Positions 49,411-56,413 of a stretch of 64,000 nucleotides of DNA are shown here, piece after piece. The DNA comes from Erysipelotrichaceae bacterium (GTDB lineage Bacteria; Bacillota_I; Bacilli_A; Erysipelotrichales; Erysipelotrichaceae): contig JAFQZR010000027.1 in assembly GCA_017405785.1 (NCBI GenBank), positions 62,001 to 126,000 on the forward strand. The letters are read 5' to 3'. The notes under the pieces are model-generated. The model saw only the letters and a list, made by a program, of their open reading frames with translations. It was not told where the DNA came from and made no database searches. The translations under genes were made by a program, and so were the position numbers. How positions within the stretch are numbered: the first letter of the stretch is position 1; every line of letters starts with the position of its first letter.

Positions 49411-50337
49411 CTATCTGCGGTCCGGACCGTTTACTTCAACCCGTGTTGCCAGGGCTTTTATCCTTGAAAGTATGCGTCCGGCTTTGATTTCATCCCTCTG
49501 ACCGCTCCGGTTATAGGCCAGCTTGACTTCCAGCTGGTCTAAGTCCAGATTGCTGGTAAATATGGTTCTCTTTTCATTGGCACATCTGTAGTCAAGAACC
49601 GGCAAAAGTATGTCGTCTCTGACCCAGTTAGTCGTATTCTCCGCTCCAATGTCATCCAGTACAACGACATCAGCTCTCTTCAGTCTCTCCATGGATGTAT
49701 CGATGTAATCGCGGGCATCCGGATTATTGAAGTCGGCCCCGATGCTGTTGCGGCATCTGGTGACAAACTGCGGAACATTTACGAAAGCCACCTTCTGTCC
49801 CTGTTTGGCCAGCCGGTTGGTTATGCAGGCGGCCAAATAGGTCTTGCCGGTACCGAAGCTTCCGTACAGATACAGGCCCATTTTCGGCTGATGAGCGATC
49901 CAGTCCTTTACCAGCATGTAGACATCAACATACCGGCTTTCTTCATGACTGATATCTGTTGTTTCTATATCGTACTGTAATTCCCTGTCGGAAAGATCAC
50001 AGATCAGATAGCGTTTCCTGTGGGCAATCAGGGCATCGGATTCATCCTTATAGCGACACTGTCTCAGAACGCTGCTGACAGTTCTGCCGTTGAGTTCGAT
50101 GCTGTCCATGTAACCTGCCGGGCTGTTGTGGCAGGCCCATAAGCCCGGACAGTTACGGCATACCTCCGCACTGTCAAGCCACTTCTTGAACATATAAGGG
50201 TTATCCTCAATCTGTTTTTTTATTTCCGGATTCCTTACCAGCATCTTCTGGATGCGGGCATCCTTCATTACTTCCTGTGCCGTATCTCTGATCTGCTGTT
50301 CAACTTCTGCGGGAATGCTGAATTCAAATTTCCTCAT
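49411..50337 (-). CDS. dnaI: Helicase loader DnaI
   Basis: AAA+ ATPase that loads the replicative helicase in Bacillota. The 308-residue protein has an N-terminal zinc-binding helicase-interaction domain (Cys60, Cys63, Cys69, His70, with Cys94 nearby) and an AAA+ domain with Walker A YGSFGTGKTYLAA (Lys165) and Walker B VVVLDDIGAE. It follows dnaB with a 14-bp overlap, as in Bacillus subtilis. It is not DnaC of the proteobacterial type. Confidence 0.95.
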   Translation of the reverse strand: MRKFEFSIPAEVEQQIRDTAQEVMKDARIQKMLVRNPEIKKQIEDNPYMFKKWLDSAEVCRNCPGLWACHNSPAGYMDSIELNGRTVSSVLRQCRYKDESDALIAHRKRYLICDLSDRELQYDIETTDISHEESRYVDVYMLVKDWIAHQPKMGLYLYGSFGTGKTYLAACITNRLAKQGQKVAFVNVPQFVTRCRNSIGADFNNPDARDYIDTSMERLKRADVVVLDDIGAENTTNWVRDDILLPVLDYRCANEKRTIFTSNLDLDQLEVKLAYNRSGQRDEIKAGRILSRIKALATRVEVNGPDRR

Positions 50338-51484
50338 TGTCCACCTCCCCGAATATTCTCGATCTTATTTCATCCATGCTGGCACTTTCCTGTTTCGTAT
50401 TCTTCTTAAGAATGAAATCAGGAGCCTTGCTTCTGGAACGTGATGTCAGATTTCTGACATATTCCTGTGCCTGATCAATTGTTGTTACATTATGCAGCGA
50501 CCAATCCTTGGCTACAGCCTTGGTCAGATTGGCCGTAATGCGTCCGTTGTGATTATCATAGACATACCTGAAAAGATAATTGATCACATCACGGCTCATG
50601 TGGTATTCCATGTTAAGCTCTTCCAGAAGCTTCTTTTCCCATGGGTCAACCTCCGTTTTTCCCTTAAGATTATAGAGATACTGAACGGATGTGACATCGT
50701 ATTCATCAGGAGTGCTTTCCGCACCCTTACTGCGAACCGCCAGGCATCTCTTTCTTAAAGCTTCATTGTCCAGGGTCCCTTCATCAATATTGATGGACTG
50801 GGCAACGATCTTGCGCATGGTCTCAATGTCTATGCTGTAGACCGTAGCCATCTGGGATATGGTTTTCAGATTGGCCTTGGTCCTTAAGGATACCGGCATT
50901 AACAGAGTGCTGTATCCGTTAAGGAATTCATTTATGTCAAACTCGATGTGAGTAGTCTCATACAGTTTCTGTTTCAGTTCTTCAAATGACCGTTCATTCT
51001 CATCGTCCCAGTCTTTCAGAACGGAAAGATCAAAGTTACTGGTGATTTCCAGATCATCCTCGCTCAGTTCCTTCACCTGGAACAGCTTGCTGGTCTGTTT
51101 GTACTGCCGTTTGCCCATCTTCTTGATGAAGAAGCGGCCAAAGGCGGCCTGCATCAGGAAATCAGATCCATTTAACGGGAACTGGATCTCAAAATGGAAA
51201 AGCTCAGTGTTCTTGTTGTAAAAGGTTCTTATCAGCTTGAACTGTTCCAGAACCTTGAAACTGGCATTGATACCGTCAATGTCAGTACCCAGTATCAGAA
51301 TCAGACGGGATATGGTATTGATCTCCTCATCAGTAAAGGAACCTTCTGCATTGAGAAGATGATACAGCGCATATGCCTGCTGTCCCATTAATGGCAGATA
51401 TAACTCAGCCAGAGCTTTCTGCTGATCAGTATTCAGACTCTGAGGATGAATTACTCTGAATTTACTTCTGCTCTTCAGTACCAT
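50324..51484 (-). CDS. dnaB: Replication initiation/membrane attachment protein DnaB (DnaD-like domains)
   Basis: Bacillota DnaB, a helicase-loading co-factor, not the helicase. The 386-residue protein starts with a winged-helix-type region (LSTDQQKALAELYLPLMGQQAYALYHLL) and has DnaD-like helical repeats in the C-terminal half (YNLKGKTEVDPWEKKLLEELNME, then YDNHNGRITANLTKAVAKDW with the YxxxIxxxW-like pattern). Sequence is loosely conserved in this family; the placement between mutM/coaE and dnaI strongly supports the call. Confidence 0.88.
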   Translation of the reverse strand: MVLKSRSKFRVIHPQSLNTDQQKALAELYLPLMGQQAYALYHLLNAEGSFTDEEINTISRLILILGTDIDGINASFKVLEQFKLIRTFYNKNTELFHFEIQFPLNGSDFLMQAAFGRFFIKKMGKRQYKQTSKLFQVKELSEDDLEITSNFDLSVLKDWDDENERSFEELKQKLYETTHIEFDINEFLNGYSTLLMPVSLRTKANLKTISQMATVYSIDIETMRKIVAQSINIDEGTLDNEALRKRCLAVRSKGAESTPDEYDVTSVQYLYNLKGKTEVDPWEKKLLEELNMEYHMSRDVINYLFRYVYDNHNGRITANLTKAVAKDWSLHNVTTIDQAQEYVRNLTSRSRSKAPDFILKKNTKQESASMDEIRSRIFGEVDNEEI

Positions 51485-51485
51485 A

Positions 51486-52883
51486 TTATTTATCTGCTTT
51501 CTCTTGTCTAAATTTTACAATATCGCCCAGCATTTTTTCAACGGCAATGCTGAGTTTATCAAGGGTGGAATCATTGTCAATAACCCTGTCAGCGACAGCT
51601 CTTTTTTCACTGTCAGGAGTCTGATTATTCAGTACTGCCATGATGTTTTCCCTGCTCATGTTTCTGGTTCTCTGCAGTCTTTCAACAGCTGTTTCCACGC
51701 TGCAGGTCACTAAGATGTTACAGTCAAAACGGCGGTACCAGTCGGTTTCAAACAACAGCGGTACTTCAACGAAAACCGCCGGATCATGTATGTGCTCTTC
51801 ATAGAATTCTCTGACACGCTGCCAGATCAGTCCATGAAGATATTCTTCCAGCTTTTCCTTTATCTCAGGGTCACTGTAGATGACTCTGCTGACTTCCTTC
51901 TTCTCATCTTCTCCTGTTATCCGTCTGATTTCGGCCCTTATTTCATTATCCAACCATAGCTGAGAGTTGATCTCATCACAGCTTATGACCGGATATCCCT
52001 GCTCTTTTATAAGCTCAGATACCGTTGATTTACCGGATCCGATGTTACCCGTAACCGCCGCAAACAAAGCTTTTTCCTTCTGACAGTTCGGGCAGTAGTA
52101 AGTCCCTCTCCCATTAACAAAACACTTTTTTATTTCCGTGCCGCATTCGCATTTTTCATGCGCACGGCTGTGAACATGGAGGTTCTGCTGGAACATGCCG
52201 GTAACACCTAACGAACTTGTATAGGATCTGATGGTCGTTCCTCCGGCCTTTATGGCTTCAGCCAGGATCTTTCTGGTGCTTTCAATGATCTGATCCCATT
52301 TTTCCCTGGAAACAAAGCATGCCGGATGCATAGGATTGATTCTGACGTCAAAACAGATCTCGTTGGCATAGATATTTCCTATTCCGGCGATCATTGACTG
52401 GTCCAGAAGCTGGGTTTTTATCGGTGTGTTCTTATGCTGGCAGTAACTCTTAAGCCACTCGCTGTTAAGCTTTTCATCAAAAGGTTCATATCCCAGTGAT
52501 TCCAGAGCCTTTAATGGCTGGCCTTTTTCATACAGCCAGAAGCGCCCGAACTTACGGACATCGTTATAATGCAGTTCTCCTTTGTCCAGCTTGAAGACTA
52601 TATGGGTGTGCTTGTCCGGTTCCCGGTGTTCAGGATAGACGTAGAACTTTCCTTCCATGCGCAGATGAGCAATCATTACATAGTCAGTCAGATTGAAAAC
52701 AAGGAACTTTCCTCTGCGGTCAAAAGTTTCAAATTTCTGTCCCTTAAGACAAGCTGAAAAAGCCGTGGCATCAGGATAATCCACGATTCTTTCATATATT
52801 ATATCAACACTTTCTATAATTCTGTTATGTATCTTCTGTTCAAGTGTTCTGACAACTGTTTCAACCTCAGGAAGTTCCGGCAT
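51486..52883 (-). CDS. mutM-coaE: Fusion: formamidopyrimidine-DNA glycosylase + dephospho-CoA kinase
   Basis: One 465-residue frame encodes two complete enzymes. Residues 1-270 are MutM, which removes 8-oxoguanine: catalytic Pro2 and Glu3 (MPELPEVETV), Lys59, the QSMIAGIGNIYANE helix-two-turn-helix, and a zinc finger ending NGRGTYYCPNCQ. Residues 272-465 are CoaE, which phosphorylates dephospho-CoA: P-loop TGNIGSGKST (278-287), VISCDEIN and VEVPLLFE. In Bacillus mutM and coaE are adjacent separate genes after polA, and the junction lacks any start codon for CoaE, so the fusion arose in place. The first zinc half reads Cys-Glu-Cys, one residue tighter than the usual CxxC. Confidence 0.95.
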   Translation of the reverse strand: MPELPEVETVVRTLEQKIHNRIIESVDIIYERIVDYPDATAFSACLKGQKFETFDRRGKFLVFNLTDYVMIAHLRMEGKFYVYPEHREPDKHTHIVFKLDKGELHYNDVRKFGRFWLYEKGQPLKALESLGYEPFDEKLNSEWLKSYCQHKNTPIKTQLLDQSMIAGIGNIYANEICFDVRINPMHPACFVSREKWDQIIESTRKILAEAIKAGGTTIRSYTSSLGVTGMFQQNLHVHSRAHEKCECGTEIKKCFVNGRGTYYCPNCQKEKALFAAVTGNIGSGKSTVSELIKEQGYPVISCDEINSQLWLDNEIRAEIRRITGEDEKKEVSRVIYSDPEIKEKLEEYLHGLIWQRVREFYEEHIHDPAVFVEVPLLFETDWYRRFDCNILVTCSVETAVERLQRTRNMSRENIMAVLNNQTPDSEKRAVADRVIDNDSTLDKLSIAVEKMLGDIVKFRQEKADK

Positions 52884-52884
52884 A

Positions 52885-55440
52885 TTACTTGACCTCCAGC
52901 CAGTTATTGCCGCTCTCGGCTTCTGCCAGTAGCGGAACCTTCAGTTCCATGGCATTTTCCATTTCTTCTTCCACCAGTTTCATTATTATCTGTTCCTCAT
53001 CTTTCGGAACATTCAGAATCAGCTCGTCATGAATCTGCAGGATCATGCGGGCTTTCAAGCCTTCCTTGTTGATTCTGTTATAGACATTTATCATGGCAAT
53101 CTTTATCAGATCGGCAGCACTGCCCTGCACCGGTGCATTCATGGCAGCTCTTTTGCCGAATTCACGCAGTGAATGGTTGGAGCTCTTGATTTCCGGAATG
53201 TCACGGCGGCGGTTGCACATTGTGGTGACATAGCCCTTCTCCTGACACTCAGCAATCGTTTCATCCATGAACTTACGGACATTAGGATACTGACGGAAAT
53301 AGGATTCGATGTATTCTCTGGCCTGATAGACCGGGATCTCCAGTCTTTCCGCCAGACCAAAATCACTCATGCCGTAGTCAATTCCGAAATTGATGGCCTT
53401 GGCCTGTCTTCTCTGTAAAGGTGTTACCTCTTCAGCCGGGATGTTGAATACATCCATTGCGGTTCTGGTATGAATGTCCATACCCTGACGGAAGGCATCG
53501 ATGAGCCGTTTCTCATCTGCCAGATGAGCCAGGATCCTTAATTCAACCTGAGAATAGTCCGCACCGACAAAGACACAGCCCTCTTCCGGTATGAAGGCAG
53601 CTCTGATCATCTGCGCTTCTTCATTACGGACGGATATGTTCTGCAGGTTCGGATTGGAACTGGACAGTCGTCCTGTCTCAGCGATGCACTGATTGTATTC
53701 TGTATGGATCTTACTGTCGGCGGTAATGTATTTCTTCAGCCCTATGGCATAAGTGCTGTTAAGCTTGGCGTATTTACGGTATTCCAGAATGGCTGTGATT
53801 ATCGGATGTCTGTCTTCGATCTTCTTCAGCACTGATGCATCCGTTGATCTCTTCGGTGAACGCATCAGTTTCAGATCATCATAAATCACCTCTGCCAGCT
53901 GCTTTGGTGAATTGATGTTAAACTGTCTTCCGGCCATCGAATAGATCTGCTCTTCCAGGGCAGCGATCTTGACACTGGTTTCCCGGGCGATCTTGTCCAA
54001 TACGGAAACATCGACACGGACACCGGTTTTCTCCATGTCAAAGAGTACTCTGGCCAGTGGCAATTCGATGTCACGGTAGAGATCTACCATGCCGTAATCT
54101 GCCAGTTCTTTCTTTAAGGTTTCCTCAACCTTATAGAGATTCCCTGCCATCTGGCACAGGTAATCCCGGTCTTCATTGCTTTCCTCTTCAAACAGGGTTA
54201 TCTGAGCTGTACTCTCACCGGCTGTTACCGTCAGGTGATACTTAAGCATCAGAGCTTCCAGATTCTTGATCTTTCCGTCGATCAGGAAAGCCTGGATCAT
54301 GGTGTCATTGATTATTCCGTTAACGGTCAGGCTGTATTTATCCAGCACATGATACCAGTGCTTGATGTTATGAACTGTCTTTTCTGTCTTTTCATCCTGC
54401 AGCCAGGATACAAATGTCTTATCGTTTACCGCGTCAGCCAGAGCAATGTAATAGCTGTCCAAGCCGTCGCTTAAGCCCAGTCCCTGTTCATTCATGTGCA
54501 GAGCCATGTGAGCTTTCAGATCAGTCTTTTCAAAGTATCTGACGGTTTTCTGGGTTCCCGTTTTCTTTTCTTCAACCGGTTCGCTCACGGTAACGTTCTT
54601 CAGGAAGGAACGCATTTCATATTTACTGTAGAACTTCATGGCATCTTCGCCATAAAGGTTGTAATCACATTCATCGATGTTGATGTCAATGTCAGCATCG
54701 ATCTTGATGGTTGCCAGCCACTTTGACATTAACGCAACATCATGATCCTTGACCAGATTCTCTTTAAGTTTTCCCTTGAGTTCATCAATATGCTCATAGA
54801 CACCTTCAACACTGCCGTAATCGTTCAGCAGCTTGATGGCGGTCTTATCGCCGACCTTGGTAACTCCCGGGATGTTATCACTGGTATCTCCTGCCAGTCC
54901 CTTAAGGTCGATGATCTGTAAAGGTGTCAGCTGATACTTTTCATAAACGGCTGCCGGATCCATCAGATCCATTTCCGTGATTCCCTTGACCATCAGCCAG
55001 ACCTTTATACGGTCATCTACGATCTGTAACAGGTCACGGTCGGAAGTCAGGACATTGATGTCATATTCCGTCTTCTGCTTGGCTAAGGAACCGATGATGT
55101 CATCAGCTTCGATGCCGGCCTGTTCAAACTGTTTCATGTCAATGGCCTGCAGATATTCTCTGATGATCGGGAACTGGGCTACCAGATTATCCGGAGCTGC
55201 CTGTCTGGTTCCCTTATACCGCCGGTACACTTCGCGGCGGAAATTGTGTCTGTCATGGTCAAAGGCCACAACGACAAAATCAGGCGCTATAACTTCCAGC
55301 GCCTTATGTAGCATTGAAGCGAATCCAAAGATCGCATTGGTAGGGATCCCTGACGATGTGGACATCGGTCTGCCGTATGCGGTTGCATAGTAAGCTCTAA
55401 ACAGCATGGAGTTGCCGTCAATCAGAAGCAGTTTCTTCAT
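52885..55440 (-). CDS. polA: DNA polymerase I
   Basis: Repair and Okazaki-processing polymerase, 851 residues from 55440 (MKKLLLIDGN). The N-terminal 5' nuclease (about 1-290) has GIEADDIIGSLAK and GLAGDTSDNIPGV. The middle 3'-5' exonuclease domain is degenerate: the DxE metal motif is replaced by SYYIALADA, as in Bacillus and Taq-type enzymes, so no proofreading is expected. The polymerase has motif A VGADYSQVELRILAHL, motif B RRQAKAINFGIDYG and motif C QIHDELIL. The ribosome site is weak (GGTG) and the start lies 1 bp after the upstream lipoprotein stop, suggesting coupling. Confidence 0.97.
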   Translation of the reverse strand: MKKLLLIDGNSMLFRAYYATAYGRPMSTSSGIPTNAIFGFASMLHKALEVIAPDFVVVAFDHDRHNFRREVYRRYKGTRQAAPDNLVAQFPIIREYLQAIDMKQFEQAGIEADDIIGSLAKQKTEYDINVLTSDRDLLQIVDDRIKVWLMVKGITEMDLMDPAAVYEKYQLTPLQIIDLKGLAGDTSDNIPGVTKVGDKTAIKLLNDYGSVEGVYEHIDELKGKLKENLVKDHDVALMSKWLATIKIDADIDINIDECDYNLYGEDAMKFYSKYEMRSFLKNVTVSEPVEEKKTGTQKTVRYFEKTDLKAHMALHMNEQGLGLSDGLDSYYIALADAVNDKTFVSWLQDEKTEKTVHNIKHWYHVLDKYSLTVNGIINDTMIQAFLIDGKIKNLEALMLKYHLTVTAGESTAQITLFEEESNEDRDYLCQMAGNLYKVEETLKKELADYGMVDLYRDIELPLARVLFDMEKTGVRVDVSVLDKIARETSVKIAALEEQIYSMAGRQFNINSPKQLAEVIYDDLKLMRSPKRSTDASVLKKIEDRHPIITAILEYRKYAKLNSTYAIGLKKYITADSKIHTEYNQCIAETGRLSSSNPNLQNISVRNEEAQMIRAAFIPEEGCVFVGADYSQVELRILAHLADEKRLIDAFRQGMDIHTRTAMDVFNIPAEEVTPLQRRQAKAINFGIDYGMSDFGLAERLEIPVYQAREYIESYFRQYPNVRKFMDETIAECQEKGYVTTMCNRRRDIPEIKSSNHSLREFGKRAAMNAPVQGSAADLIKIAMINVYNRINKEGLKARMILQIHDELILNVPKDEEQIIMKLVEEEMENAMELKVPLLAEAESGNNWLEVK

Positions 55441-55441
55441 G

Positions 55442-56413
55442 TTATTCTTCACCGCCAAATGCATCTGTCAGAGCTTTCAGATTCTGATACATGATGGTCA
55501 TGTAGTCCATGTTGCTCTCAACGTTCTTTTCCGAAAGAATGGTGAGAGATGACAGGTTGATCGGAGTCAGATCGAGTTCTTCACGAACCTGCCGGTAAAG
55601 TTCCTGCATGTCTTCAGGAAGAGTATCGTCATATACGATGTATTTGACATCGTTTTTCTTTATTTCATTTTTGATGAATTCCAGCTGCCGGGCATCAGGG
55701 AGAACACCGTATTCGGAAAGAATCAGCGGGTATACTTCGATGCCGTATGTCTTCTGCCAGTTGCCGAATGTACAGGCAACGGTAACCATCTTCTTGTCGG
55801 TATACTGCTTCAGCATCTGATATTCAGAGTCAAGTCTGACTAGCTGAGCCTGCAGATTCTTGAAGTTGTTTTCAATAGACAGAGATTCTTCCGGATAGTA
55901 GTTCTGCAGCCATTCCTTGATGGTAGCAGCCATGGAGGATGCAGCGATCGGATCGATCCAGATGAACGGGTCTTTCTTATAGGTATCGACCATGTCAAAC
56001 AGTGCTGAATCATAGTACTTTGATTCAGTTACCACTGTTGAGCCGTTCGGGGCTGTCGTCAGAATAAATCTTTTGAACTCATCGATGGCGCTTAAAGCTG
56101 CCAGATTGATGATGTTGAAATCATAGGACTGAATGTGCTCCTCATATATCTTCAGATACGGCTCAAGTTCTCCTATATAAAGAAACAGTGCGGTATCCTC
56201 AAAGATCTTTTCATAGCCGCTCTTGAGCGTCGCTCTCTGAATGAACTCATCAGTGCTGATGCATTCAACATTAACTCTATTACCGGCCAGCTGTTCGACG
56301 ATATACTTAACCGGGTATACTGTCGTAACAATTGTCGCCTTTTTACTCTTGCATCCGGAAAGCAGGCCAAGCAACATAGATATCAGGATAAGAATAATAA
56401 CTTTTCTTTTCAT
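55442..56413 (-). CDS. ZnuA-fold metal-binding lipoprotein lacking histidine ligands
   Basis: A 323-residue lipoprotein: hydrophobic signal, lipobox LLSGC (Cys21) and a cluster A-I solute-binding fold (TIVTTVYPVKYIVEQLAGNRVNVECI; LFLYIGELEPYLKIY). In Zn/Mn binders the ligands come from His-FEP, DPHIW and a HD-AFGY element. Here those positions read TDEFIQRAT, DPFIWIDP (His to Phe) and ACTFGNWQ (His to Cys-Thr), and no His-rich loop exists. Metal binding of the usual kind is therefore unlikely. No ABC permease or ATPase is adjacent; instead it heads the polA operon. It could bind another ligand or serve as a surface protein. Confidence 0.8.
   Translation of the reverse strand: MKRKVIILILISMLLGLLSGCKSKKATIVTTVYPVKYIVEQLAGNRVNVECISTDEFIQRATLKSGYEKIFEDTALFLYIGELEPYLKIYEEHIQSYDFNIINLAALSAIDEFKRFILTTAPNGSTVVTESKYYDSALFDMVDTYKKDPFIWIDPIAASSMAATIKEWLQNYYPEESLSIENNFKNLQAQLVRLDSEYQMLKQYTDKKMVTVACTFGNWQKTYGIEVYPLILSEYGVLPDARQLEFIKNEIKKNDVKYIVYDDTLPEDMQELYRQVREELDLTPINLSSLTILSEKNVESNMDYMTIMYQNLKALTDAFGGEE

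Follow-up and report, generated by a model that had tools for sequence, protein, structure and literature searches.

MutM is an 8-oxoguanine/Fapy glycosylase with AP lyase activity, and CoaE is the ATP-dependent kinase whose reaction completes CoA synthesis. In Bacilli with separate genes, the two enzymes are encoded in a polA–mutM–(ytaF)–coaE region by two ORFs that often overlap in the −1 frame. This gene pair is already known as a frame-transition site: the clusters of Antonov et al. (2013) include one named “DNA glycosylase / Dephospho-CoA kinase”, for which reporter tests in Escherichia coli suggest that programmed frameshifting and translational coupling may both occur (PMC3711429). A two-domain CoaE has been described in Mycobacterium tuberculosis, where the partner domain, UPF0157 (GrpB), helps CoaE fold (PMC2765170). 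MutM/Fpg from Geobacillus stearothermophilus is structurally characterized (PDB 1r2y and 1l1t).

Here, we describe a locus in which mutM and coaE form one gene, located in a 64,000-nucleotide stretch of the genome of an Erysipelotrichaceae bacterium (hereafter the window). The gene pair is that of the Antonov cluster, but there two frames are joined, if at all, by recoding, whereas in the window the join is fixed in the DNA. Compared with the separate genes of Bacilli, the enzymes, their order, and the operon neighbors are the same, and the two ORFs are replaced by one. In the M. tuberculosis protein, as in the window, CoaE shares its chain with another domain, but there it is N-terminal and its partner is not a DNA repair enzyme. 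The Geobacillus MutM shares the whole fold of the MutM part (rmsd 1.4 over 268 residues, 41% identity) but stops where the window's CoaE part starts. In targeted full-text literature searches, no paper on a genomic MutM–CoaE fusion was found, and only Antonov et al. (2013) addressed the pair.

Results

One open reading frame carries both enzymes

The fused gene runs from ATG to TAA without internal stop codons and encodes 465 amino acids (Table 1). Pfam searches with this protein matched Fapy_DNA_glyco at residues 1–115 (E = 9e-35), H2TH at residues 130–220 (E = 3e-25), and CoaE at residues 276–441 (E = 5e-33; 114.7 bits versus a cut-off of 27), with zf-FPG_IleRS at residues 247–269 scoring 19.6 bits, slightly below the cut-off of 21.3. 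The MutM half passes the NCBIfam equivalog PRK01103 (291 versus 212 bits) as well as TIGR00577 (287 versus 203 bits), both over the full profile, and the CoaE half passes the equivalog TIGR00152 (104 versus 65.6 bits). Automatic database annotation may already label MutM–CoaE fused proteins. A sequence search of the PDB matched Geobacillus MutM to residues 1–269 (E = 2e-57) and Thermus TT1252, a CoaE homologue, to residues 273–455 (E = 4e-27).

An earlier first-pass annotation, made from the DNA letters alone, had read the locus as a single in-frame fusion containing both sets of catalytic residues, and this reading is confirmed by the profiles and by an alignment of 20 fused proteins. In the alignment, P2, E3, K59, R110, the four zinc-binding cysteines, and R259 of MutM are invariant, as are G279, G284, K285, S286, D303, E373, L377, E379, R407, Q421, and N437 of CoaE. 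The invariant MutM positions include the N-terminal Pro and Glu and the β-hairpin Lys, and those of CoaE cover the P-loop (GxxGxGKS/T), the Asp of the CD motif, the PLLFE motif, and the Arg and Gln of the lid/CoA site. Judged by these sequence features, the fused chain comprises two complete enzymes that would fold independently, with predicted glycosylase, β,δ-lyase, and kinase activities.

No second MutM/Nei (H2TH) gene and no second CoaE gene were found in the window's genome, which is 97% complete, and a further copy in the remaining 3% or so is improbable. As no other CoaE gene was found in this genome, its CoaE probably comes from the fused gene.

The first zinc knuckle of the MutM half (residues 245–247; about 52143–52151, minus strand) reads C-x-C in the window and in its closest relative (L003), one residue shorter than the C-x2-C of the other 18 aligned proteins.

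Table 1. Coordinates of the fused gene, its parts, and its neighbors within the window.
Feature	Position	Strand	Basis and remarks
dnaI-like helicase loader	49411..50337	−	206.5 bits versus a cut-off of 228
dnaB-like replication initiation gene	50324..51484	−	directly downstream of fused gene, 1-base gap; below NCBIfam cut-off; position conserved
Fused gene mutM-coaE	51486..52883	−	465 codons plus stop; ORF and family matches
CoaE (dephospho-CoA kinase) part, residues 274–465	51489..52064	−	profiles and alignment
CoaE P-loop GNIGSGKST, residues 279–287	52023..52049	−	translation and alignment
In-frame TTG (Leu273), potential start codon of a free CoaE	52065..52067	−	junction reading
Linker EKAL, residues 270–273	52065..52076	−	alignment and junction reading; pLDDT 96–97
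AAGGA, SD-like, 7 nt upstream of TTG	52075–52079	−	junction reading
MutM/Fpg part, residues 1–269 (N-terminal domain, H2TH, zinc finger)	52077..52883	−	profiles, alignment, and structure match
polA (DNA polymerase I)	52885..55464	−	directly upstream of fused gene, 1-base gap

Gene order around the fusion

The fusion lies in a conserved gene order, polA–mutM–coaE–dnaB–dnaI, and within the family polA upstream and dnaB downstream are retained whether mutM and coaE are fused or split. The first-pass claim that Bacillus keeps mutM and coaE as adjacent genes did not hold, since in the Bacillaceae loci examined the two are usually not directly adjacent. In several of these loci, about 690–890 nt lie between the mutM stop and the CoaE P-loop, which leaves room for another gene; in B. 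subtilis, this intervening gene is ytaF.

The polA ORF as listed in Table 1 begins within the upstream gene (window 55440–55464), and the true polA start is likely the ATG at 55440 (MKKLLLIDGNS), right after the stop of that gene. The gene in question (55442–56413, directly upstream of polA) encodes an AdcA/ZnuA-like zinc or manganese binding lipoprotein, for which matches to NCBIfam models are weak.

The fusion is widespread and recurrent

The full fused gene is present in 25 of the 273 genomes searched of the window's family, and a partial one in two more (G004 and G157). These fused genomes belong to the genera g1, g26, g3 (in part), g53, and g67, and most of the remaining genomes of the family have two separate genes. 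Within the window's genus, all eight genomes with a readable junction carry the in-frame join, the window's own counted (G000, G001, G002, and G005–G008 in full; G004 on a contig covering the junction), and so do six from the sister genus g26. Linker length is equal in G001, G002, G004–G008, and the six sister-genus genomes. Across independent genomes, the junction read in the window thus recurs in seven further genomes of the genus and six of the sister genus.

At least 78 of the 395 genomes sampled across the class are fused, a lower bound counted among the best 150 matches listed. Fused families among the matches listed are f1, f6, f8, f11, f14, f19–f22, and f25, and the named examples are Bacilli metagenome-assembled genomes such as L055, L056, L058, L059, L060, and L064. 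The distribution described here covers one class; the phylum-wide sample was almost entirely of that same class, and our claims are therefore confined to it.

The phylogenetic data show that the fused and split states are intermixed. In a quick tree of 113 rows, built on both domains with the linker excluded, the label switches between fused and split no fewer than 13 times, nine of these changes being forced by starred, well-supported branches, and in a more careful tree of 56 rows (the window's family and one outgroup row) it changes seven times, five of them forced; in neither case does the count separate gain from loss. Grouping all fused rows of the 56-row tree as one clade was rejected by the AU test (p-AU about 3e-89), and with it the idea that the fusion arose only once in the family. 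The window's fusion falls in a clade formed by g1 and g26 (support 96 in the 113-row tree).

Two further observations concern lineages that differ from these patterns. In family f12 (L208, L209, L213–L215, and others), the stretch of about 1.5 kb that follows mutM yielded no coaE, and in this respect f12 differs from its sister families. In the uncultured Erysipelotrichaceae RUG14760 (L102), mutM ends with ...CQKSKARPFFL followed by TGA, with the CoaE signal continuing in another frame; this may be a fusion that has been frameshifted or is decaying, or the sequence may contain an error.

Geometry of the junction

Among 97 distinct close split pairs, the commonest arrangement places coaE in the −1 frame (51 pairs); in 30 pairs it shares the frame of mutM, and in 16 it is in the +1 frame. 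All three split lineages closest to the window's clade (L012, L245, and L258) show an ATGA overlap, in which the coaE start lies inside the mutM stop and coaE is in the −1 frame. Comparison of split L245 (CAG AAA TGAAG GTA GCT) with fused L034 (CAA AAA CCAAAACCAATAGTA GTA GCT) reveals a gain of 10 bases, and comparison of the same fused junction with split L012 a gain of 7 bases; both numbers equal 3n+1. The first-pass annotation had attributed the fusion to loss of the intergenic stop, which is not supported: because the nearest split relatives overlap in different frames, loss of a stop is insufficient, and an insertion of 3n+1 bases is required. Between fusion origins, linker length and sequence vary freely.

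The slippery heptamer X_XXY_YYZ is not enriched at the −1-frame junctions of split pairs (4 of 51, versus 4 of the 46 others), which favors coupling over recoding in this group. A programmed-frameshift gene pair was considered for the locus and rejected, the window having one open frame and its split relatives no enrichment of the heptamer.

In five split lineages (L041 [G166], L042, L047, L052, and L241), mutM and coaE share the same frame, and only one stop plus one to a few codons lie between them. These pairs are either one substitution short of fusion or fusions that have been split again.

Discussion

Probable near-neutral merging of coupled genes

We consider recurrent, near-neutral merging of coupled operon genes, yielding two independent enzymes tethered 1:1, to be the best explanation of the data, with a probability of roughly 0.8. 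In the ancestral polA–mutM–coaE–dnaB operon, coaE would have been in the −1 frame, with its start within the stop of mutM (ATGA), and these overlapping genes were probably translationally coupled before fusion, in line with the coupling and readthrough that Antonov et al. (2013) propose for the pair. A small insertion (3n+1 bases) directly behind the final codons of the zinc finger would bring the frames into register and create one gene. Such merging would be repeated across related lineages, since little beyond a frame change would be needed at a junction that appears tiny and tolerant, and selection on the join itself is likely to be weak. MutM and CoaE would then be supplied at a fixed 1:1 ratio, and MutM could no longer be lost or regulated separately from the essential CoaE. 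Neither shared chemistry nor shared regulation would be required for fusion. The first-pass annotation had offered two options, a neutral fusion or one that links oxidative stress and repair to CoA level. The former fits better because the fusion is recurrent, split relatives are interspersed, and linkers are varied, whereas the latter found no support.

Does the fused gene also yield free CoaE?

A different possibility is that the one ORF gives two products, the fusion and a free CoaE, the latter arising by internal initiation at the TTG of Leu273 or by proteolysis at the junction. In this respect, the first-pass annotation was correct in noting that the junction lacks a stop codon but not in stating that it lacks a start codon, given the in-frame TTG. 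The computed anti-SD energy for this TTG is −6.2, with good spacing, and L170, apparently a recent fusion, retains a stronger signal (−8.6), its junction having a complete SD and an ATG. However, same-genus relatives have CTG, CTT, or GTG at the TTG position, with mostly weaker upstream sites, and the TTG is probably fortuitous, not being conserved in the genus. Moreover, 56 of 84 distinct fused junctions, scanned from the last zinc-finger CQ to the P-loop, contain no ATG, GTG, or TTG. Free CoaE is hence not generally required, and a conserved internal CoaE start is ruled out as a general feature. In the species without a start codon in this span, the fused chain itself must act as CoaE, assuming that they have no other CoaE (single copy was checked in the window's genome only). 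Taken together, these data make a two-product gene unlikely.

L170 (G481, family f14) has a strong SD (GAAGGAG) and an ATG at its junction, and its sister L158 is split. L170 would thus seem to be a young fusion at a transitional stage, perhaps still able to produce free CoaE.

Is the tether functional?

AlphaFold modeling of the fused protein gave a mean pLDDT of 95.1 and a pTM of 0.91, with pLDDT values of 96–97 across residues 261–280, that is, through the junction. The MutM half of the model matches MutM–DNA complexes with a Z score of 36 (rmsd 1.4 over 268 residues); the fold-comparison matches listed are MutM chains, and the CoaE half rests on sequence evidence. Given the high pTM and the absence of a loose linker, the relative placement of the two domains may be defined and may matter.

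Such an arrangement could be adaptive if tethering of CoaE coupled DNA repair to the CoA or ATP state, or to dephospho-CoA, a molecule able to cap RNA. The repeated origin of the fusion, its retention in whole families, and a short linker that is predicted to be well ordered speak for this idea, and the fixation of the fusion across the whole sampled families f8, f19, and f20 suggests that it could be favored rather than neutral. On the other hand, the linkers of different origins vary freely in length and sequence, split species persist alongside fused ones within the same genus (g3), and the gene order was inherited from an old operon. To our knowledge, MutM and CoaE share no pathway, which also counts against adaptation, and we regard this scenario as improbable. 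Slightly more doubtful still is a stronger version, in which independent lineages repeatedly converge on a rigid MutM–CoaE chimera because proximity of CoaE to the glycosylase is genuinely advantageous, for instance by tying base excision repair allosterically to CoA/ATP status, and in which split relatives may make some fused protein by readthrough.

Selection on both halves and reality of the join

Purifying selection acts on both the MutM half and the CoaE half. Nei–Gojobori estimates for seven fused pairs gave dN/dS values of 0.05–0.13 for the MutM half and 0.10–0.28 for the CoaE half, values that are rough for the pairs with synonymous distances above 1. It is very improbable, then, that one half is a relic, with MutM decaying while CoaE stays active or vice versa: the first zinc knuckle, one residue short in both the window and L003, and the sub-threshold zinc-finger score could be read as signs of decay, but the catalytic residues are all invariant, the dN/dS of the MutM half is low, and the MutM fold is predicted with confidence. 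An assembly or sequencing frameshift that conceals two separate genes would need precisely a frame change at the junction, and the assembly is a draft of 30 contigs; this possibility is ruled out for practical purposes by the identical in-frame join in seven further same-genus and six sister-genus genomes.

Implications

The merging of mutM and coaE constitutes a natural, replicated gene-fusion experiment, in which functionally unrelated neighbors have merged on many occasions, in some cases inside a single genus. This allows a direct test of whether fusions of operon neighbors are neutral by-products of overlapping genes. The locus also carries a warning for “Rosetta stone” reasoning, in that fused genes may lack a common pathway. 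In fused lineages, deleting the DNA repair gene also removes the only known CoaE.
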